Positions 588 through 13,680 of a stretch of 64,000 bases of DNA are shown here, in pieces; the first letter of the stretch is position 1; each line of letters starts with the position of its first letter. A program made the translations under genes and the position numbers. This DNA comes from Jiella avicenniae. GTDB lineage: Bacteria > Pseudomonadota > Alphaproteobacteria > Rhizobiales > Rhizobiaceae. The notes under the pieces are model-generated. The model did not search any database. It was not told the DNA's origin and saw only the letters and a list, made by a program, of their open reading frames with translations. The DNA lies in NCBI RefSeq assembly GCF_021390325.1, contig NZ_JAJUWU010000008.1:62001-126000 (forward strand), in the 5' to 3' direction.

Positions 588-1751
588 ATGCGCGCCTCCG
601 GCGTCCCCTCCAGTCAGCCTGAATCGTCTCCCGCCGCCGCGCCGCGTTTCGTCCTGCGTCCGGCGGTCGCCGAGGACGTCGATTCGCTGGTCGCCCTTGA
701 AGAGGCGGTCTTCGTTTCCGACCGGATCACCCGGCGCTCGTTCAAGAGCCTTCTCGGATCATCCAGTGCGCTGATCCTCGTCGCGGAGGATCACGCCGGC
801 GGCGAGCTTCTCGGTTATGCGGCGCTGCTGTTCCGCCGGGGCACGGCTCTCGCGCGGCTCTATTCGATCGCCGTGTCGGCGACGTCGGTCGGCCAGGGCA
901 TCGGCCGGGCGCTGCTCAAGGGCGCCGAAACGGCGGCCTTCGAAAGGGACCGGGTCTGCCTCAGACTCGAGGTCCGCGAGGACAACGAACGGGCGATCAG
1001 ACTCTACCGCCTGGAAGGCTTTCGGCCGATCGGCCGCTATCTCGACTATTATGCCGATCACATGCCGGCGCTCCGCTTCGAAAAGACGCTGCGTGGCGAC
1101 AAGCCGTTCGACACGGGCGTTCCCTATTACGAGCAGACCACCGATTTCACCTGCGGCTCGTGCTGCCTGATGATGGCGATGGCCCGCGACGTCGAGGGTT
1201 TTCAGCTCGACCCTGTGATGGAAATCCGGCTTTGGCGCGAGGCGACGACGATCTTCATGATGTCGGGGCCCGGCGGCTGCGATCCCTTCGGCCTCGCGGT
1301 CACGGCCCACGAATTCGGCCTCGATGCCGCGATCCACGTCTCCCAGGCCGGCGATCTGTTTCTCGAAGGCGTCCGGAGCCTCGAGAAGCAGAAGGTCATG
1401 GCGCTCGCTCAGGAAGACTTTCGCCGACGGGCGGTGCAATACGAGATTCCGACGGTGATCGAACCCTTCACGCTGGACACGCTGCGCGCCCATCTCGGGC
1501 GGGGCGGCACCGCCATCGTTCTCGTCTCGGGCTACCACATGTTCGCCAAGAAGGTGCCGCACTGGGTGCTCGCCCATGGCGACGACGGGCGGCACATCAT
1601 CATCCACGATCCCTGGGTCGCCGACGAGCGGGGCGAATCCATTGCGGACGCGGCCTACCTGCCGCTGCCCTATCAGACCTTCGACAAGATGGCCCGGTTC
1701 GGCAAGGCGAGCCTCAGGGCAGCGGTTTTTCTCTCGCCCCGACGGAGCTGA
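588..1751 (+). CDS. GNAT acetyltransferase fused to a C39-like peptidase domain
   Basis: This is a 387-residue two-domain protein. Residues about 20-168 form a GNAT N-acetyltransferase; the acetyl-CoA loop is SVGQGIGRALLKG at 100-112, and NERAIRLYRLEGF follows. Residues about 178-387 resemble a C39/papain-like peptidase: YYEQTTDFTCGSCC places the putative oxyanion Gln at 183 and the nucleophile Cys at 189, PHWVLAHGDD gives His325, and IIHDPW gives Asp341. All catalytic positions are present, so both domains could be active. The next gene, 9 bases downstream on the same strand, is a RimK-like ATP-grasp ligase. This pairing fits a cassette that ligates, acetylates and trims a peptide or protein; that role is inference and the substrate is unknown. 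There is no signal peptide, so it is probably cytoplasmic. Confidence 0.82.
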   Translation: MRASGVPSSQPESSPAAAPRFVLRPAVAEDVDSLVALEEAVFVSDRITRRSFKSLLGSSSALILVAEDHAGGELLGYAALLFRRGTALARLYSIAVSATSVGQGIGRALLKGAETAAFERDRVCLRLEVREDNERAIRLYRLEGFRPIGRYLDYYADHMPALRFEKTLRGDKPFDTGVPYYEQTTDFTCGSCCLMMAMARDVEGFQLDPVMEIRLWREATTIFMMSGPGGCDPFGLAVTAHEFGLDAAIHVSQAGDLFLEGVRSLEKQKVMALAQEDFRRRAVQYEIPTVIEPFTLDTLRAHLGRGGTAIVLVSGYHMFAKKVPHWVLAHGDDGRHIIIHDPWVADERGESIADAAYLPLPYQTFDKMARFGKASLRAAVFLSPRRS

Positions 1752-1760
1752 CGCGTCTTC

Positions 1761-3215
1761 ATGTCCCAATGGGTCGTCCTCGTCGGCCGCCTGGCCGAAC
1801 TCGACAACAGCGCCACCCCGCACAAGGTGATGACCAGCCGGGACTATCTCGCCCGTCCGGCGCTGTTTCGCGGCCAGCGGCCGAAGATCATCAATCTCTC
1901 CCGCTCCTACGCCTATCAGAGCCGCGGCTACTACGCCTCGCTGCTGGCCGAGGCGCGCGGCCACCGCATCATCCCGTCGGTCGAGACGATGATCGATCTG
2001 TCGGAGAAGAAGCTCTACGAAAACGCCCTGCCGGAACTCGATTCGGTGCTTCGCAAGGCCTGCGACAAGGGCGAGGCGCCGGCCTCTCCGATCCGCGTCT
2101 ATTTCGGCTATTCGGGCGATCACCGGCTGGAGCGCTTCGCCAAGCTGGTCTTCGACTGGTTCCGCGCCCCGGCCCTCGACATTCACCTGGAGCCCCATGC
2201 GGCGACGCCGACGATCCGTCGGATCGGCTTTTCGCCGCTCGGAAAGCTCGACGACGGCGAGATGTCGCGCCTTTATGCCTCGATGGAGCGCTACACCGGG
2301 CGGGAATGGCGGGCGGCCAAGACCAAGACCCCGGCGAAATACACCTTCGCCACGCTCTACGACCCGCGCGAGGAATTGCCGCCGTCTTCCGTCGAGACGC
2401 TGAAGCATTGGGCGCGGGTCGCCGCCCGGCTCGGCGTCGACGTCGAGCCGATCACCCGCAAGGATCTGCCGCGGCTGGCGAATTTCGACGCCCTGTTCAT
2501 CCGCGAGACGACGTCGATCTCCAACCACACCTATCGCTTCGCGCGCCGCGCGATGCAGGAGGGGATGCCGGTCATCGACGACCCGATCTCGATGATCCGC
2601 TGCACCAACAAGGTCTATTTGAACGAGCTGATGGCGGCGAACGCCGTCGCCTGTCCGCCCGGCCTGATGATCGCCGGACGCGAGGATCTCAAGCGCGCCG
2701 CCGACGAACTCGGCTTTCCGATGGTGCTGAAGATCCCGGACGGCTCCTTCTCGCGCGGGGTCAAGAAGGTCGACGATTTCGTCGGGCTCGAAAAGCTCGC
2801 CGGCGCCTGGCTGGAGGACAGCGATCTGCTGATCGCCCAGAAGTTCATGCCGACGAAGTTCGACTGGCGGATCGGCGTTCTGGGCGGCGAACCGCTCTTC
2901 GCCGTCCAGTATCTGATGGCCAAGAGCCACTGGCAGATCATCAATCACGAGACCGGCGGCAGGCCGCTGGAAGGCGGCTTCAAGACCTTCTCCCTCGGCG
3001 AAACGCCGCCGCACGTGCTCGACGCCGGCCTCAGGGCCGCCCGTTGCATCGGCGACGGGCTCTATGGCGTCGACCTGAAGGAGACCGACGACGGCGTCTT
3101 CGTCATCGAGGTCAACGACAATCCCAACCTCGAGCACGGCGTCGAGGACCAGATCGAGAAGGACGAGGTCTGGACCCGGCTGACGCGCTGGTTCGTCGAC
3201 CGGATCGTGCGCTGA
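1761..3215 (+). CDS. RimK-like ATP-grasp ligase
   Basis: This 484-residue protein has a long N-terminal region (about 1-190) of the kind seen before RimK-type ATP-grasp folds. The ATP-grasp core follows: NHTYRFARRAMQEGMPVIDDPISMIRCTNKVYLNELM, then FPMVLKIPDGSFSRGV (ATP-binding lysine strand), and near the C terminus VFVIEVNDNPNLEHGVED (about 447-464), which supplies the metal-binding E-x-N-x-N residues. RimK-family enzymes use ATP to form amide bonds between a carboxylate and an amino acid such as glutamate. At 484 residues it is much longer than classical RimK (about 300). It lies 9 bases after the GNAT/C39 gene and is probably cotranscribed with it, suggesting a joint peptide-modification role. 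The exact amino acid and acceptor cannot be read from the sequence. Confidence 0.85.
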   Translation: MSQWVVLVGRLAELDNSATPHKVMTSRDYLARPALFRGQRPKIINLSRSYAYQSRGYYASLLAEARGHRIIPSVETMIDLSEKKLYENALPELDSVLRKACDKGEAPASPIRVYFGYSGDHRLERFAKLVFDWFRAPALDIHLEPHAATPTIRRIGFSPLGKLDDGEMSRLYASMERYTGREWRAAKTKTPAKYTFATLYDPREELPPSSVETLKHWARVAARLGVDVEPITRKDLPRLANFDALFIRETTSISNHTYRFARRAMQEGMPVIDDPISMIRCTNKVYLNELMAANAVACPPGLMIAGREDLKRAADELGFPMVLKIPDGSFSRGVKKVDDFVGLEKLAGAWLEDSDLLIAQKFMPTKFDWRIGVLGGEPLFAVQYLMAKSHWQIINHETGGRPLEGGFKTFSLGETPPHVLDAGLRAARCIGDGLYGVDLKETDDGVFVIEVNDNPNLEHGVEDQIEKDEVWTRLTRWFVDRIVR

Positions 3216-3287: not shown

Positions 3288-4973
3288 TCAAAGGTGAGCC
3301 AGATGCTCGCACCGGCCGCGGCTGGCGAAAAATCCGACCGACGTCCATGGCGGGTTGTTCCACGCCGCCGTACGCGAACCGCCACGAGCCCCGTCGGCGT
3401 AGTTGGCGCCCAGCAAAAGCGCCGAGGGCTGACTGACCATCTGCCCGCGCCCCTCGGAATTCTCGCTCCACCCGGTGGTGTAAGATCCACCGAACCCCTT
3501 TCCCCAGGTGTAGTAGCAGCCCGATGACTGGATGATGCCCCAGATCGAGGTGAATTTCTGGTCGGAATTGGTGGACCCGGCGTTGGTCGTTCCGAGCCCC
3601 GTCGTGAAAGGATTGTTGCCGCGTGTCGCGGCCTCCGTGGTGCCGAAGGCCGCCACGACGTAATCGTCGTAGTCGAGCAGTCCCTTGCCCACCGATGCCA
3701 GGAGTTCGACCGCCTCGTACCAGGTGAACGAGCCGTACGTCGCCGTGCCGTCGCCGCCGAAGGCCACGGGGATCTTGGGCGGAGCCGCGCCGGTCGCGAC
3801 GGCCACGCCGGAGCGTGACGAGCCGTACAGGCCCGCGTCGACACCCGTCAGATAGACGTCGCACCAGAAACGTCCTGCGACCAGCGCCATGCCCCGCGGA
3901 TCCGCGCAGGCCGGACGCCATTTGAGATCCCACAGGCTGTAGGGGTTGATTTGCGGGGTGGTGTCGCCGCCGGCGTTGTAGCCTGGCGCATTGCCGCCGG
4001 CGGCGTAGTGAAAGCCGCCGATCTTGCGGCTGTCGGCAGCCGTGAAACCGGCGGGGGCGACGAGGCCCGCATCCGCACGCACCGTCCCGTCCGAGCAGAC
4101 GTAGACCGCGTAGTCGGTTCCGGCCGCAAGGGCCGGCATCTGCACCGATGTCGGGGCGGCGAAGCCATGCACGAAGCCGGCGACCTCGACGTAGCTGCCG
4201 GCCTTCAACTCCAGCGTCCCGCTGCCGGTCCGGGCGAAGGCGACGCTGCCTGCGTCGGCCTTGTGGAACAGGCCGCTCGCGATGGCGCCGATCGAACCCG
4301 TCTTGGGAAAGCTCACCCGCCCGGTCGTCCGGTCGATCGCCAGCGCGTCGTGAAAGGCTGCGCCGTCCGGCGAGACCTTGATGCGAAAATCCTCGTCGCC
4401 ATAGAGCCCCATCAGGGCGCGGGTCGACCAGCCGCTCTGGAAGTTGAAGCCGGCATCCTTGCCCGCGTCCTCCTTGTTGAAGGTGCCGAGGACGCTGCCG
4501 TTGCCGCTGCCCGAGGCGTCGTCGTGGCTGACGAGGAGGGCAGAGGTCTTGATTGCGACCCGGTTGAAATCGTCGGCCGCGGTGTTGACGCCGAGGCGGG
4601 AGAGGGCGCCGCCGGCGAAATCCGTCGGGCCGAGCATCGCCGGTGCCCAACCGTCGCCGTCGTGAACCAGCAGCGCTTCGTCCGCGATGCACCAGGCGCG
4701 CCACCCGGCCTGGGGCTCGAGGAACATCCAGACGCCGTCCTGCCAGACGGCGACGGTTCCGCCGCGTCCCGCCCATTCGCCCGAGGCTTCCGCCGCGACG
4801 ATGTGCCGATCCCCAGCCGAAGGCGCTGCGGGAGGCTCGGTCCGGTCGCGGTCGAGGACGGCGAGATGGACGAGGGCGTCGAGCCGGACCAGCCCGTCGT
4901 TGTGGGTGACGTGCTTCTGGGCCTGGTCGGCGAGGATGTAGGGTAGGGCGAGGCGGTCGGTGGTGTCGGCCAT
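3288..4973 (-). CDS. DUF2793 phage-tail-like protein with a C-type-lectin-like C terminus
   Basis: The 561-residue protein opens with TDRLALPYILADQAQKHVTHNDGLVRLDALVHLAVLDRD, the hallmark of DUF2793, a family known from alphaproteobacterial prophages and gene-transfer-agent-linked genes. The middle (about 120-400) is Gly/Ala-rich and repetitive with short beta-prone segments, as in tail fibres. The C-terminal about 90 residues (WGIIQSSGCYYTWGKG..., then LLLGANYADGARGG and FFASRGRCEHLAHL) resemble the C-type-lectin/formylglycine fold used by variable receptor-binding proteins. No other phage gene, reverse transcriptase or second copy of the 3' end is nearby, so it may be a stray gene-transfer-agent or prophage tail gene, or a domesticated adhesin. 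The preceding 200 bases are AT-rich compared with the surroundings, consistent with acquisition. Confidence 0.75.
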   Translation of the reverse strand: MADTTDRLALPYILADQAQKHVTHNDGLVRLDALVHLAVLDRDRTEPPAAPSAGDRHIVAAEASGEWAGRGGTVAVWQDGVWMFLEPQAGWRAWCIADEALLVHDGDGWAPAMLGPTDFAGGALSRLGVNTAADDFNRVAIKTSALLVSHDDASGSGNGSVLGTFNKEDAGKDAGFNFQSGWSTRALMGLYGDEDFRIKVSPDGAAFHDALAIDRTTGRVSFPKTGSIGAIASGLFHKADAGSVAFARTGSGTLELKAGSYVEVAGFVHGFAAPTSVQMPALAAGTDYAVYVCSDGTVRADAGLVAPAGFTAADSRKIGGFHYAAGGNAPGYNAGGDTTPQINPYSLWDLKWRPACADPRGMALVAGRFWCDVYLTGVDAGLYGSSRSGVAVATGAAPPKIPVAFGGDGTATYGSFTWYEAVELLASVGKGLLDYDDYVVAAFGTTEAATRGNNPFTTGLGTTNAGSTNSDQKFTSIWGIIQSSGCYYTWGKGFGGSYTTGWSENSEGRGQMVSQPSALLLGANYADGARGGSRTAAWNNPPWTSVGFFASRGRCEHLAHL

Positions 4974-5175: not shown

Positions 5176-5898
5176 TCAGCCGAAGAACGACCAGATCAGT
5201 GGCAGGAGGATCGCCGTGGCCAGGGCGTTCAGCCCCATGGCGAGGCCCGAAAAGGCACCCGCGACTTCGCTCTCCTGCAGCGCCTGCGCCGTGCCGATGC
5301 CGTGCGACGCGGTGCCGAGGGCAAAGCCCCGCGCCGCCGGATCGCCGATCTTCATTCGATCGAGAAGGGCCGGGCCCAGCGCCCCGCCGAGAATGCCGGT
5401 GAGGATGACGAAGACCGCGGTCAGCGACGGCAGGCCGCCGAGCTTTTCGGCGATGCCCATGGCGACCGGCGCGGTGACGGATTTCGGAGCCAGCGAAACC
5501 AGGCTGACTTGGTCGAGCCCCATCAGCCAGCCGATGCCGAGCGCCGTCCCCATCGCCGTCATCGAACCGAGCAGGAGGCTGGCGAGGACGGCGACGGCGC
5601 TGCGCCTAACCTTCTCGAACTGCCGGTAGAGCGGGATCGCCAGAGCCACGGTCGCCGGGCCGAGCAGAAAGTGGATGAACTGCGCTCCCTCGAAATAGGT
5701 TTGATAGGGGGTGCCGGTCGCAGCCAGGATGGCGACGAGGCAGACGACGGAGATGAGCACGGGGTTGAGCAGCGCCGGTCGGCCGGCCCGGCCGTAGAGC
5801 CATTGGGCGCCCTGATAGACGACGAGGGTGATCGTCAGCGCGAGGAGCGGGCTCGCCGCGAGATAGACCCAGATGTCGGACAGCGTCTCGGGCATCAT
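5176..5898 (-). CDS. lrgB: LrgB/CidB family membrane protein
   Basis: A 240-residue polytopic membrane protein with about seven hydrophobic segments. LLGPATVALAIPLYRQFEKVRR, then SLAPKSVTAPVAMGIAEKLGG and FALGTASHGIGTAQALQESEVAGAFSGLAMGLNALATA, are the conserved LrgB signatures. LrgB/CidB proteins act with the small LrgA/CidA protein in holin-like control of murein hydrolase release or in transport of small overflow metabolites; which applies here cannot be told. The start codon overlaps the stop of the upstream lrgA-like gene by four bases, so the two are translationally coupled. The length is normal for the family. Confidence 0.9.
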   Translation of the reverse strand: MMPETLSDIWVYLAASPLLALTITLVVYQGAQWLYGRAGRPALLNPVLISVVCLVAILAATGTPYQTYFEGAQFIHFLLGPATVALAIPLYRQFEKVRRSAVAVLASLLLGSMTAMGTALGIGWLMGLDQVSLVSLAPKSVTAPVAMGIAEKLGGLPSLTAVFVILTGILGGALGPALLDRMKIGDPAARGFALGTASHGIGTAQALQESEVAGAFSGLAMGLNALATAILLPLIWSFFG

Positions 5899-6284
5899 CC
5901 TCGCTCTCCTCCGCTCTCCGCCTCGTTCGATCGCGACTGACCGGCGCCGCGCCCCGGTCCGAGGCGGTTCATGACGAAGGCGGTCACGGCGATCGTCACC
6001 AGCGCTGAGCCGACGAGGGCGGCGACGACGGCTCCCGCCTCGTCTTCCAGCCGGGCCGCATGCTGCATGATGCCGACGCCGGCGGGCACGAAGAGCAGCG
6101 AAAGATTGGCGAGCAGCGCGTCGCCGACGACGCCGATGTCTCGCGGGACGCCCTTGCGGATCACCAGAACGGCGAACAGGATCACCATCCCGATTACCGG
6201 TCCGGGCAAGGGCAGGCCGCTCGCGGCCGAGATCGTCTCGCCGGCGAGTTGGCAGAGCAGGATGGCGGTCAGGGCTTGCAGCAT
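5895..6284 (-). CDS. lrgA: LrgA/CidA family holin-like protein
   Basis: A 129-residue small membrane protein. LTAILLCQLAGETISAASGLPLPGPVIGMVILFAVLV is the typical LrgA start, and LSLLFVPAGVGIMQHAARLEDE is the conserved second half. About four hydrophobic helices are expected. The frame is open further upstream to 6455, but that stretch is not family-like, so the ATG at 6284 (MLQALTAI) was chosen. The stop overlaps the lrgB start by four bases. Together the pair forms the usual two-gene holin/antiholin-like operon. The basic tail (RNEAESGGERG) is unremarkable. Confidence 0.88.
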   Translation of the reverse strand: MLQALTAILLCQLAGETISAASGLPLPGPVIGMVILFAVLVIRKGVPRDIGVVGDALLANLSLLFVPAGVGIMQHAARLEDEAGAVVAALVGSALVTIAVTAFVMNRLGPGRGAGQSRSNEAESGGERG

Positions 6285-6515: not shown

Positions 6516-6950
6516 ATGAGCAAATATGATCCCTTGGGGATCCATCTCGGCGCCCGAAGCGAAACTCGGATCGCGATGACGTTCCGCGAGATCGAGCACA
6601 TTCTCAATTTTCCGCTCCCCCCCTCCAAGGCCAATCGCGCCTGGTGGAGCAACAACCCGAACAACAACGTCATGACGCATCAGTGGCTGAGGGCGGGCTA
6701 TGCCACCGAGGCGGTCGATATCGCCGCCGAACGGCTGACCTTTCGCCGCATCGATCCTGCGAAGTTCCCGGCGCGGACCACAAGAGCAAAAGACGGTCCG
6801 GGACCCGAGGCCGAGAATGCGGATGCCGGCGCGGCGCCGGGACGAGACCGCATCTTCGGCTGTATGAGCGGCACGCTCACGCTTCTGGACGGCGTGGATC
6901 TGACCGAGCCCGCGGATGCCGAATGGGCCGGAGCGTATGACGAAGCCTGA
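6516..6950 (+). CDS. DUF7662-like protein with a VapB/Phd-type antitoxin tail
   Basis: A 144-residue protein with two parts. Residues 1-79 (SKYDPLGIHL..., MTFREIEHILNFPLPPSKANRAWWSNN, WLRAGYATEAVDIAAERLTFRR) match the small DUF7662-type domain. Residues about 111-137 (DRIFGCMSGTLTLLDGVDLTEPADAEW) resemble the toxin-neutralising tail of VapB/Phd antitoxins, which often read F-G-x-M-x-G-T-x-x-x-x-x-G-V-D-L-T-x-P. A charged linker joins them. The gene overlaps the following PIN-toxin gene by 14 bases, so it is most likely the antitoxin, with the DUF7662 part replacing the usual DNA-binding fold. The start at 6516 is preceded by GGGAG at good spacing; an upstream frame start at 6471 has no such site. 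That it neutralises the toxin is inferred from the tail and the overlap. Confidence 0.7.
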   Translation: MSKYDPLGIHLGARSETRIAMTFREIEHILNFPLPPSKANRAWWSNNPNNNVMTHQWLRAGYATEAVDIAAERLTFRRIDPAKFPARTTRAKDGPGPEAENADAGAAPGRDRIFGCMSGTLTLLDGVDLTEPADAEWAGAYDEA

Positions 6951-7362
6951 ACCGCCGCTGCTTCTCGACACCTGCGCCGTCATCTGGCTCTCCCAAGGCG
7001 TCGGCGTTTCGGCCGCGGCGGAGAATGCGATCGAAGAAGCCCGGAGGTCCGGGAACGGCATCCGGGTTTCGGTGATGACCGCCTGGGAACTCGGGATGCT
7101 GGTGGCGAAGGGCCGGTTGCCGGCCAGCATGCCCGCCGATCGATGGTTCGAGGAATTCGTCCGCGTCGCGGGCGTCACCGTGGAGGCCGTCACGCCGACG
7201 ATCCTCGTCGCCGCGTCGTTTCTGCCGGGATCGGTGCATGGCGACCCGATGGATCGCATCCTGATCGCCAGCGCCCGAGAACGGGGGCTGACGGTCTTGA
7301 CGCGCGACAGAGCCATCCTCGCTTACGGTGCCGCTGGCCACGTTCGTGCGATCGCCTGCTGA
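6937..7362 (+). CDS. vapC: VapC-like PIN-domain toxin
   Basis: A 141-residue PIN-domain protein. The acidic residues of the metal site are all visible: Asp11 in LLLDTCAVIWL, Glu51 in MTAWELGML, Asp103/Asp106 in HGDPMDRILIA, and Asp124 in VLTRDRAIL. VapC toxins are ribonucleases that cut tRNA or rRNA when freed from their antitoxin. The start at 6937 lies inside the end of the preceding antitoxin-like gene, giving translational coupling. An in-frame start 21 bases further up also exists and is less likely. The target RNA cannot be predicted. Confidence 0.87.
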   Translation: MTKPEPPLLLDTCAVIWLSQGVGVSAAAENAIEEARRSGNGIRVSVMTAWELGMLVAKGRLPASMPADRWFEEFVRVAGVTVEAVTPTILVAASFLPGSVHGDPMDRILIASARERGLTVLTRDRAILAYGAAGHVRAIAC

Positions 7363-7501
7363 CGGAAAGGGTCAGATCACATTCGCCGTGTCGTCCGGTT
7401 GCTGCCCGTCCGGTGAAAGTCGGTGACAACGTGCCGATGCTGCACCAAATCGGCTATGGCCTGTGCTACCGCTCGCCGTTGGGCCACCATTTGAAAGTCT
7501 C

Positions 7502-9457
7502 ATGCGCTTTCCACCATCCTTCCTCGACGAGATCAGAGACCGGGTGCCGATTTCCGAGGTGATCGGCCGACGCGTCACCTTCGATCGCAAGAAGTCGCAG
7601 CCCGGCCGTGGCGACTTCTGGGCCTGCTGCCCGTTCCACGGCGAGAAGACGCCGTCCTTCCACTGCGAGGACCGCAAGGGGCGCTATCACTGTTTCGGCT
7701 GCGGCGTGTCGGGAGATCACTTCCGTTTCCTGACCGAACTCGAGGGACTTGCCTTTCCCGAAGCCGTGGAGCGGCTGGCCGCCGAGGCCGGGCTTCCAAT
7801 GCCCGAGCGCGATCCGCAGGCCGAGGCGCGCGAGGCGCGGCGCGGCACCCTCGTCGAGGCGCTGGCCGAGGCCGCGAGCTTCTTCTCCCAGCAGCTCCAC
7901 GACGCCGACGGCGCCAAGGCGAGAGCCTATCTGCGCGATCGCGGCATGACGGCGCGCACGCAAGCCGGCTTCGGCCTCGGCTTCGCGCCGAATTCCCGCA
8001 ACCGGCTGAAGGAGCATCTGGCGGCCAAGGGCTTCGGCCGGGAGGAGATCGAGGGGGCCGGGCTCGTCGTCCATGGCGAGGGGATTGCCGTCTCCTACGA
8101 CCGGTTCCGCGACCGGATCATGTTTCCGATCCACGACGTCAACGAGCGGGTCGTCGCCTTCGGCGGCCGGGCGATGGCCGCCGACGCCCAGGCGAAATAC
8201 CTCAACTCGCCGGAGACCGACGTCTTCCACAAGGGCGAGATGCTGTTCAACCTCGCCAAGGCGCGGCGTGCGGCCCGGGAAGCAGGCACCGTCGTCCTCG
8301 TCGAGGGCTACATGGACGTCATCATGCTGGCTCAGGCGGGTTTCGCCAACGCCGTCGCGCCGCTCGGCACGGCGATGACCGAGCGCCAGCTCGACCTCCT
8401 CTGGCGCGTGGCCGGTGAGCCGATCCTGTGCTTCGACGGCGACGCGGCCGGGCTGAAGGCGGCCAACCGCGCGGCCGAGTTGGCTTTGCCGGCGCTGAAG
8501 CCCGGCCGCTCGCTGCGATTTGCGCTCCTGCCCGAAGGCAAGGACCCGGACGATCTCGTTCGCGACGGCGGCCCGGAGGGTTTCGCGGCGGTGCTGTCGG
8601 CCGCCCGGCCGCTGGCCGATCTGGTCTTCATGCGCGAGACCCAGGGGGGCAGCTTCGACACGCCCGAGCGGCGCGCCGAACTGGAGCACCGGTTGAAGGG
8701 CCTCTACCGGACGATCGGCGACGAGGCGGTGCGCCGGCATTATCTCGACGATCTCTCGGCGCGGCTCTCGAGCTTCTTCGGAACCGGAACGTCGGTGGGC
8801 CGATCCCAGCGCGGCGGCTGGCAGGACAAGGGCAACGCCCGCGGCGGCTACGGCCGGCGCGACGGCAAGCCGGGCAGGGGCCAGCAACCGGGCCGCGCGG
8901 CGATCTCCGACCGCCTGGCTCGCTCGCGCCTCGCTTCGCCCGCGGGCGGCTCCGCGCCTTCCCTGCGGGAGATCGCCATCGTCGTCGGCTTCGTCAATCA
9001 CCCGCTTCTGATGGAGGAGGAGTTCGAGGTCTTCGCGGGCCTCGATCTCGCCAGGGGCGATCTGTCGCGGCTGCGATCGGCCGTGCTCGACGCCCATGCG
9101 ACCAATCCGCCCAGAGACCGCGACGAACTCCTCGTCGAACTTCGCCGGCACGGCGCCGAATCGCTGTTCTTCGCCTTCGAGGCGAAGCTCAAGGCCGTGC
9201 GTCTCTGGCCGGTGCTCGCCGAGGCAGCCTTCGAGGACGCCCGCGAGGCGCTGCGCCAGATGCTGCACCTCCAGCACCGGTTCCTCGCGCTGAAACGCGA
9301 ATTGCGGCATGCCGAGGAAGTCTTCGGCCGCGAGCCGACGGAAGCGGCCTATGCCCATATCATGGAAATCAAGGGCGAGATCGAGCGCGTCGACGGCACC
9401 GAAGCGTTGATCGACGGCTTCGGCCTCTTGTCGGGACGCCCGATGAAGGCCATCTGA
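7502..9457 (+). CDS. dnaG: DNA primase DnaG
   Basis: A 651-residue primase that makes the RNA primers for replication. The N-terminal zinc-binding domain is intact (Cys43, His46, Cys64, Cys67 in CCPFHGEKTPSF...RYHCFGCG). The catalytic core follows, with the TOPRIM motif VVLVEGYMDVIML (Glu268) and LCFDGDAAGLKAANRA (Asp312, Asp314). A low-complexity Gly/Arg linker at about 430-470 leads to the C-terminal helicase-binding domain. The chosen start gives MRFPPSFLDEIRDRVPISEVIG, the canonical N terminus; the frame is open 39 bases further upstream but without homology. rpoD follows on the same strand after a 336-base spacer, a classical bacterial order. Confidence 0.97.
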   Translation: MRFPPSFLDEIRDRVPISEVIGRRVTFDRKKSQPGRGDFWACCPFHGEKTPSFHCEDRKGRYHCFGCGVSGDHFRFLTELEGLAFPEAVERLAAEAGLPMPERDPQAEAREARRGTLVEALAEAASFFSQQLHDADGAKARAYLRDRGMTARTQAGFGLGFAPNSRNRLKEHLAAKGFGREEIEGAGLVVHGEGIAVSYDRFRDRIMFPIHDVNERVVAFGGRAMAADAQAKYLNSPETDVFHKGEMLFNLAKARRAAREAGTVVLVEGYMDVIMLAQAGFANAVAPLGTAMTERQLDLLWRVAGEPILCFDGDAAGLKAANRAAELALPALKPGRSLRFALLPEGKDPDDLVRDGGPEGFAAVLSAARPLADLVFMRETQGGSFDTPERRAELEHRLKGLYRTIGDEAVRRHYLDDLSARLSSFFGTGTSVGRSQRGGWQDKGNARGGYGRRDGKPGRGQQPGRAAISDRLARSRLASPAGGSAPSLREIAIVVGFVNHPLLMEEEFEVFAGLDLARGDLSRLRSAVLDAHATNPPRDRDELLVELRRHGAESLFFAFEAKLKAVRLWPVLAEAAFEDAREALRQMLHLQHRFLALKRELRHAEEVFGREPTEAAYAHIMEIKGEIERVDGTEALIDGFGLLSGRPMKAI

Positions 9458-13155: not shown

Positions 13156-13680
13156 TTACCGCACTTCCTTCCAGGTCGGCGAGACCTGCCAGAACTGGCC
13201 GGAATAGTTGGCGCAGCGGGTCAGATGCGGCTCGTTGTCGTCGGGGCCGCCGTTGAAGATGTCGAGGCACATGTTCGGCCCGCGAAACTGCGTGGTCAGG
13301 CGATAGGCGTCACCTTCGGGCGAAAACCGCCAGAACTGGCCCGAATAGTTGCCGCAGGGCGCCAGATGCACCTGGTTGTTCCGCTGGCCGCCATTGAAGA
13401 CGTCGAGACACATGCCGCGACCGCGGAACATCGTCGAGAGTTTGTAATAGCCGTTGCCGGCCGGCGTCAGCCGCCAGTACTGGCCGGACACGTCCTCGGC
13501 CGGCGCCAGATGCGTCATGTCGTTCTTCGGTCCGCCATTATAGACGTCGAGGCGCATGTCGCCGCCACGAAACTCCGTCGACAGCGTCTGGAAAAATCTC
13601 AGATCGAACTCCTGCGCCGAGGCGGCGGTCGAAGCGAGCGAAATACAGAGCACGGCGGCCAGTCTACGCAACACGGTCAT
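13156..13680 (-). CDS. Secreted three-repeat beta-trefoil lectin-like protein
   Basis: A 174-residue protein with an N-terminal signal peptide (VLRRLAAVLCISLASTAASAQ, cut near 23). Three tandem repeats of about 46 residues follow at 37-84, 85-131 and 132-174. Each contains F-R-G-x-x-M-x-L-D-(V/I)-(Y/F)-N-G-G and S-G-Q-(Y/F)-W, the ricin-type QxW pattern. Three such repeats make one beta-trefoil, so the protein is a complete minimal trefoil and probably binds a sugar outside the cytoplasm. Four cysteines in repeats 2 and 3 could form disulfides. The neighbours give no functional hint; no enzyme domain is attached. Confidence 0.8.
   Translation of the reverse strand: MTVLRRLAAVLCISLASTAASAQEFDLRFFQTLSTEFRGGDMRLDVYNGGPKNDMTHLAPAEDVSGQYWRLTPAGNGYYKLSTMFRGRGMCLDVFNGGQRNNQVHLAPCGNYSGQFWRFSPEGDAYRLTTQFRGPNMCLDIFNGGPDDNEPHLTRCANYSGQFWQVSPTWKEVR

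Follow-up and report, generated by a model that had tools for sequence, protein, structure and literature searches.

The window analysed here is a stretch of 64,000 nucleotides from Jiella avicenniae (contig NZ_JAJUWU010000008.1, positions 62,001 to 126,000), and near its start lie two co-directional genes. The first encodes a GNAT acetyltransferase fused to a papain-like peptidase domain (DUF3335), and the second encodes an RLAN domain followed by an ATP-grasp ligase (Table 1). The original prediction, made from the sequence alone, had described a fused GNAT and C39-like peptidase lying nine bases from an ATP-grasp ligase, with intact catalytic and metal-binding residues; the open reading frames (ORFs) and Pfam matches agree with this layout, and the residues are conserved in 24–25 aligned relatives, so that the active sites are kept among them. 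Our analysis revealed an optional peptidase and a constant core made up of the GNAT and the ligase. The closest kin of the GNAT are the protein N-terminal acetyltransferases.

Table 1. Features of the gene pair, in window coordinates (pLDDT, predicted local distance difference test; pTM, predicted template modelling score; aa, amino acids).
Feature	Position	Strand	Basis
GNAT-DUF3335 fusion gene, 387 aa	588..1751	+	ORF call, Pfam, AlphaFold2 pLDDT 90.2, pTM 0.86
GNAT domain, residues 20-172, protein N-terminal-acetyltransferase-like; E128 = 969-971, Y140, YYxD hairpin	645..1103	+	
DUF3335 papain-like peptidase domain, residues 178-382; Q183, C189 = 1152-1154, H325 = 1560-1562, D341	1119..1733	+	
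Gap of nine bases, stop to ATG, between co-directional genes	1752..1760	+	Sequence
RLAN + RimK/LysX-type ATP-grasp ligase gene, 484 aa	1761..3215	+	ORF call, Pfam, AlphaFold2 pLDDT 86.0, pTM 0.64
RLAN domain, residues 27-170	1839..2270	+	Pfam, aligned relatives
LysX/RimK-like pre-ATP-grasp + ATP-grasp unit, residues 194-484; D438, E450, N452	2340..3212	+	Structure comparison, aligned relatives

Co-occurrence of the genes in related genomes

Co-occurrence was counted in 299 genomes of the phylum, one draw that was searched for both families. The RLAN ligase was found in 60 of them, which makes it a common family, DUF3335 in 51 and both in 50, a co-occurrence beyond chance (Fisher p 1.4e-45, kinship between genomes ignored). 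The genome counts likewise ignore relatedness; by genus, the ligase was present in 35 of 181 and DUF3335 in 28 of 181. The two genes were adjacent, within 5 kb of each other, in 48 of the 50 genomes with both; the pair thus occurs jointly much more often than separately, which supports the original prediction. Four arrangements occurred among these 48 (co-directional with the peptidase gene leading in 27, divergent in 16, the ligase leading in 4, convergent in 1). Since the gene order varies and the nearness is kept, these results suggest a functional link.

The peptidase was frequently missing from this association. Of the 60 ligase-bearing genomes of the phylum, 10 gave no match to DUF3335 at an expectation value (E) of 0.001, and a GNAT lay at most 3.5 kb from the ligase in all eight of the ten that were inspected (G057 and G187 were left out). 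Among 37 ligase loci of another draw, the GNAT was present in 34 and the peptidase in 24; the three loci with neither were those of an L. adelaidensis plasmid, of a P. aeruginosa plasmid and of genome G169, in which the GNAT-DUF3335 gene sits on a different contig from the ligase. A further set of 80 named loci comprised the best 80 of 576 confirmed ligase relatives, chosen on the ligase alone and skewed to Alphaproteobacteria. The GNAT adjoined the ligase in 79 of these and the peptidase domain in 50, the peptidase being absent beside the ligase in 29; the sole locus without an adjoining GNAT (L177) is cut by a contig end. Presence of either domain in the loci was counted by tblastn, and the 37-locus and 80-locus sets overlap, as at least L064 and L068 share their ligase with a named locus.

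A tree of 117 ligases, built by a quick method, requires the peptidase label to change at least 17 times, and 10 of these changes are forced by well-supported branches alone; the peptidase is absent in three Chelativorans and two of three Nitratireductor. In a class-level relative (L067), the GNAT, RLAN and ATP-grasp domains share one open frame of 659 amino acids, with a separate GNAT-DUF3335 gene alongside. The original prediction had proposed peptide synthesis, capping and release. The enzyme types fit ligation and amine capping, but since the peptidase is often missing, leader cleavage is unlikely to be an obligatory release step.

Relatives of the ligase were also found in nine viral contigs, eight of which match the ATP-grasp part only, while L192 retains a piece of RLAN. 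One of the contigs (L191) is cut by its end, and L185 and L186, with equal match figures, could represent a single virus. In four of them, a GNAT gene overlaps and directly precedes the RLAN-less ATP-grasp gene (L187:7558-8867, L188:7493-8858, L189:7499-8903 and L190:6619-7877). The relative at L186:8016-8948 is flanked by terminase and portal genes, that of L187 is near an integrase and that of L189 near a tail fibre gene. When viral sequences were scanned with the GNAT-DUF3335 alignment, no relative appeared. The minimal system thus seems to consist of a GNAT and a bare ligase. A second viral scan gave seven contigs, all already in the first set, and named phage records contain only four to six distant ligase relatives.

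Domains of the two proteins

The first gene matches Acetyltransf_1 (Pfam, E 5.6e-14). Its E128 is kept in 24 of 24 aligned relatives and its Y140 in 23 of 24, and we take these to be the active-site glutamate and tyrosine at the RimI places, in role and in numbering; the roles assigned to the catalytic residues of the GNAT, the peptidase and the ligase are all presumed from family knowledge. In the structure comparison of the GNAT model, each of the first 21 rows was, judged by its title or molecule name, a protein N-terminal acetyltransferase. The best structures were 4pv6 (Z score 22.9, root mean square deviation (rmsd) 1.5, 147 residues aligned) and RimI 2cnm (Z 22.7, rmsd 2.2, 147 aligned), and rows less than 1 Z apart were treated as tied. 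A profile of 14 GNATs of the system gave, among its best 14 rows, Sulfolobus Ard1 (4.1e-27), human Naa10 (6.4e-22) and bS18-alanine acetyltransferase (5.3e-21). By structures and by sequence profiles, the system GNAT is thus nearest to Ard1 and RimI.

A YYxD hairpin pattern is present in 13 of the 14 system GNATs. Seven of the 17 further GNAT proteins found in the window genome were compared, and all of them lack it; in the best rimI match of the genome (C10), the YY is present and the spacing differs. Scored with the system-GNAT profile, C10 was the nearest of the seven at 54.6 bits, followed by 46.4, 45.1 and 43.9, and the GNAT of the genome's genuine N-acetylglutaminylglutamine synthetase (Ngg) scored 39.3. 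These comparisons favour a peptide or protein N-terminus as the substrate, with a modest margin and with the limit that nearness of fold fixes no substrate.

The second protein exceeds the Pfam cut-offs for RLAN (PF14401, E 1.1e-41, 142.4 bits against 25) and for the RimK ATP-grasp (PF08443, E 1.7e-06, 28.2 bits against 21). D438, E450 and N452, presumably the metal ligands, as well as K284, K324 and R370, are invariant in 25 of 25 aligned relatives, and so are N45, Y57, Y58, S60 and R66 of the RLAN domain. Residues 194-484 of the ligase model align to LysX, ArgX and RimK with Z 27.4 to 24.2; the match to LysX 3vpd (Z 27.4, rmsd 2.6, 266 of 281 aligned) covers the whole pre-ATP-grasp and ATP-grasp unit. 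These three enzymes modify acidic chains or the C-terminal ends of proteins. The window ligase shares their fold and active site, but it has the extra RLAN domain in its first ~190 residues and scores below the cut-offs of both the RimK family alpha-L-glutamate ligases (TIGR00768, 81.4 against 143.4) and LysX (TIGR02144, 84.7 against 275.6). Its partner also differs, being a GNAT where RimK has RimB/RimA. In the structure comparisons of both models, the rows were filled by the GNAT and ATP-grasp halves, and the RLAN and DUF3335 folds lie outside them.

The second half of the first protein matches DUF3335 (PF11814, "Peptidase_C39 like", E 3.6e-76, 255.7 bits against a cut-off of 25). Q183, C189 and H325 are kept in 24 of 24 relatives, and position 341 holds D in 21 relatives and E in the other 3, so that the papain-like set is present. 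The C39-like label of the original prediction holds in the sense of this family name, but not in that of the leader-cutting family, since PF03412 was matched by the gene only at E 0.31, with a score of 11.3 bits where 22 is the cut-off. The protein carries no fused ABC exporter, its 387 residues being GNAT and DUF3335 alone. A profile search with DUF3335 gave no significant solved structure; the best was 6mpz (E 0.026, both pieces weak).

Genomic settings of the relatives

Four settings in which DUF3335 occurs with a decayed or absent GNAT were inspected, and two of them lie beside peptide-type ABC importers. In genome G172 (L102:5132-15396), a DUF3335 gene with a GNAT half unrecognised by Pfam follows genes for a LysR protein, a peptide-binding protein, a permease, an ATPase and an AstE/AspA deacylase, and a second DUF3335 gene with a weak GNAT remnant stands at the other end of the set. 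In the S. meliloti plasmid pSINME02 (L219:6953-7621), a GNAT-less DUF3335 gene is the last of an ABC importer operon, the binding protein of which is 29% alike that of the G172 set. Both settings suit peptide hydrolysis by DUF3335. Among the plasmid matches of DUF3335, one (H11) was inspected, with H9, H10, H12 and H13 left out. An Azospirillum plasmid record carries no annotation in the stretch concerned.

A third conserved partner had been suggested as a check on the pair, and candidates appeared only in some Gammaproteobacteria-like genomes, not generally. RMND1/DUF155 proteins are tied to translation, and a DUF155 gene lies at most 6 kb from the unit in 13 of the 299 genomes. DUF2817 adjoins the unit in five (L072, L074, L075, L076 and L181) of the 132 stretches searched. 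DUF155 includes RMND1, which an excerpt of the literature describes as a cause of mitochondrial disease. In the L. adelaidensis plasmid (L217:41-3232), the RLAN ligase gene is followed in a row by genes for GCS2 and N-formylglutamate amidohydrolase. Neither of these two proteins had a match at 1e-4 in the 132 stretches, so that this context was seen only once; in a different family, 19 genomes among 74 have weak matches to the GCS2 protein, with E down to 4.5e-7.

Possible functions of the pair

We tentatively favour, with somewhat less than even confidence, a cytoplasmic two-enzyme module that acts on peptide or protein ends, with DUF3335 as an optional eraser; the substrate class is taken from the nearest relatives. 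The ATP-grasp ligase would activate a carboxylate as an acyl phosphate and join an amino acid or amine, and the GNAT would acetylate an alpha-amino group from acetyl-CoA, which would protect that molecule or cap the newly joined residue. Both reactions, the acyl-phosphate ligation and the acetyl-CoA-dependent acetylation, are those of the respective families. Where present, the papain-like domain tied to the GNAT may hydrolyse the product or an N-acetylated end, acting as an eraser or recycler and not as an obligatory leader peptidase. The constant pairing and the one fusion suggest that GNAT and ligase act on one molecule, the nearest relatives suggest a peptide or protein end as the target, and the optional presence and two importer settings of DUF3335 suggest the eraser or recycler. 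The DUF155 genes near some of the units, with their tie to translation, also fit this reading.

Several observations weigh against this proposal. Likeness of fold does not fix the substrate of a GNAT, and small-molecule GNATs score only slightly lower in the structure comparison (PaiA 20.3, tabtoxin resistance protein 19.8). The window GNAT stays below the RimI cut-off (TIGR01575, 73.3-76.1 bits against 86.4), and the rimI candidate C10 scores higher (82.9 against 76.1 bits), likewise below the cut-off. The same ligase and GNAT chemistry also serves small molecules, and the GCS2 and N-formylglutamate amidohydrolase context suits a metabolite. The importer contexts suit the breakdown of free peptides; among the scanned neighbours of DUF3335 in the other two settings, G223 (L103) and G008 (L101), there is no importer. 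Of the 34 genomes among the 299 that have DUF155, 20 have RLAN and 14 do not, and DUF155 is absent from the window genome and from the sampled members of its family.

The favoured module could be part of a broader scheme, a write-cap-erase system for the ends of cellular proteins that is widespread in Pseudomonadota. In such a system, the RimI-like GNAT and the RimK-like RLAN ligase would be the constant writer and the papain-like domain an optional eraser, with DUF155 connecting the system to translation in certain lineages, and the stripped form borne by phages would rewrite a host protein. We consider this wider scheme unlikely.

A close rival, possible though somewhat doubtful, is that the pair makes a small soluble N-acetyl- or N-acyl-peptide metabolite (an osmolyte, storage compound or signal), comparable to the N-acetylglutaminylglutamine amide made by Ngg/AsnO. 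The GNAT would acetylate the first residue, the ligase would add the second and DUF3335 would degrade the product. PMC8070244 describes Ngg as N-acetylating glutamine and forming a peptide bond, with a peptidase gene in its operon. Ngg thus has a GNAT and an ATP-grasp in one chain, as does the fusion in L067, and the operon of RLAN ligase, GCS2 and N-formylglutamate amidohydrolase, together with the DUF3335 relatives that adjoin oligopeptide importers, once with an AstE/AspA deacylase, points in the same direction. However, a genuine Ngg already exists elsewhere in the genome (TIGR03103, 915 bits against a cut-off of 569), and the window GNAT reaches 25.1 bits in that family and is nearer to the protein N-terminal acetyltransferases. 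In addition, no further cluster of similar proteins occurs in more than 7 of 41 stretches; only part of the clusters were annotated, and a metabolite partner may lie among the rest.

Alternatively, DUF3335 may itself be a transferase that adds a residue to the N-acetyl product, as phytochelatin synthase and BtrH are in the papain-like fold. PMC10318531 supports this, describing DUF3335 as close kin of Guanylate_cyc_2, grouping it in one section with BtrH-N and phytochelatin synthase, and noting frequent DUF3335-GNAT fusions, for which it cites Iyer et al. 2009; BtrH-type chains also appeared in our profile search, at a non-significant E of 0.15. We regard this as quite unlikely, since the GNAT-less DUF3335 that ends a peptide-type importer operon suits hydrolysis and the frequent absence of DUF3335 implies that the product does not need it.

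Very improbable, in our estimate, is a ribosomal peptide modified by the ligase and the GNAT, the leader of which would be cut by the C39-like domain, although graspetide precursors are modified by ATP-grasp ligases and the distant C39-like resemblance of the peptidase domain (6mpz) could be read in its favour. The 3889 ORFs of 22-130 amino acids found near the pair in 125 loci fell into 125 clusters. Mesorhizobium and kin account for the 12 largest, and many are Arg/Ser-rich and look like shadow frames. Of 42 clusters with at least two loci outside the Rhizobiales-like set, none exceeds four loci; the 15 largest, which were inspected (27 others were left out), are mostly from Hyphomonadaceae. 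The leader-cleavage role given to the peptidase in the original prediction was accordingly dropped as the leading model, since PF03412 falls below its cut-off, the peptidase is dispensable and not fused to an ABC exporter, and no small ORF near the pair formed a cluster spanning lineages among those inspected, though a precursor encoded farther away might still occur.

Comparison with known systems

Iyer et al. in 2009 (Mol Biosyst 5:1636) reportedly described a neighbourhood of RLAN-ATP-grasp, GNAT and papain-like peptidase genes and predicted peptide ligation or synthesis with capping. The families (PF14401, PF11814 and GNAT) are the same here, and so, reportedly, is the gene association. 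Measured in the present analysis were the optional nature of the peptidase, the fusion of GNAT with ligase and the viral forms that lack RLAN; an earlier mention of them there is possible. The window GNAT differs from RimI and Ard1 (Naa10), its nearest structures and profiles, in its score below the rimI cut-off and its fusion to a peptidase, with a better rimI candidate at C10. It differs from Ngg, which is separate in this genome, in failing TIGR03103. The Rim and Rlo operons of Pseudomonas (PMC12239564) likewise combine an ATP-grasp ligase with a protease counterpart, but those proteases are aspartic, and the word GNAT does not appear in that paper.

A literature search by the family names and the pair found no experimental study of the pair; PMC6753144, PMC6893657 and PMC9756463 name one of the families, their contents lying outside the search. 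The window pair therefore seems to belong to an already predicted kind of neighbourhood that is experimentally untouched. Our study adds the following: the peptidase is dispensable, GNAT and ligase make up the core and may occur fused, protein N-terminal acetyltransferases are the nearest relatives of the GNAT, and viral contigs carry a stripped form. The 2009 paper may contain some of this. A GNAT and ligase unit with an optional peptidase shifts the experimental focus to the two-protein core first and to the peptidase, as a possible eraser, second.

Neighbouring sequence

The pair is preceded by a CheW-like gene on the opposite strand and followed, also on the opposite strand, by a DUF2793 gene with a second domain, Mtd (PF21916), at 3288-4973 (-). 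Since both flanking genes are on the other strand, the pair is a two-gene unit here. Each of the two families, GNAT-DUF3335 and RLAN ligase, has one copy in the genome, and the window ligase is 91% identical to its relative in Jiella and 86% to that in Aurantimonas. A sigma-70 pattern search found no promoter, and three terminator-like sites were seen against 1.8 expected. Neither protein matched any anti-phage defence family of PADLOC-DB at E up to 0.1. The DUF2793 protein with its Mtd domain presumably resembles the target of a diversity-generating retroelement; the genome gave no match to a reverse transcriptase (PF00078) and no second copy of the 3' end of this gene.

Elsewhere in the window, an LrgA-LrgB pair lies at 5176-6281 (-), and a PIN-domain gene at 6916-7362 (+) stands just ahead of a dnaG-like primase gene at 7463-9457. 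A 138-nucleotide repeat is present in three tandem copies at 13162-13584, the outer two being 68% and 70% like the middle copy.

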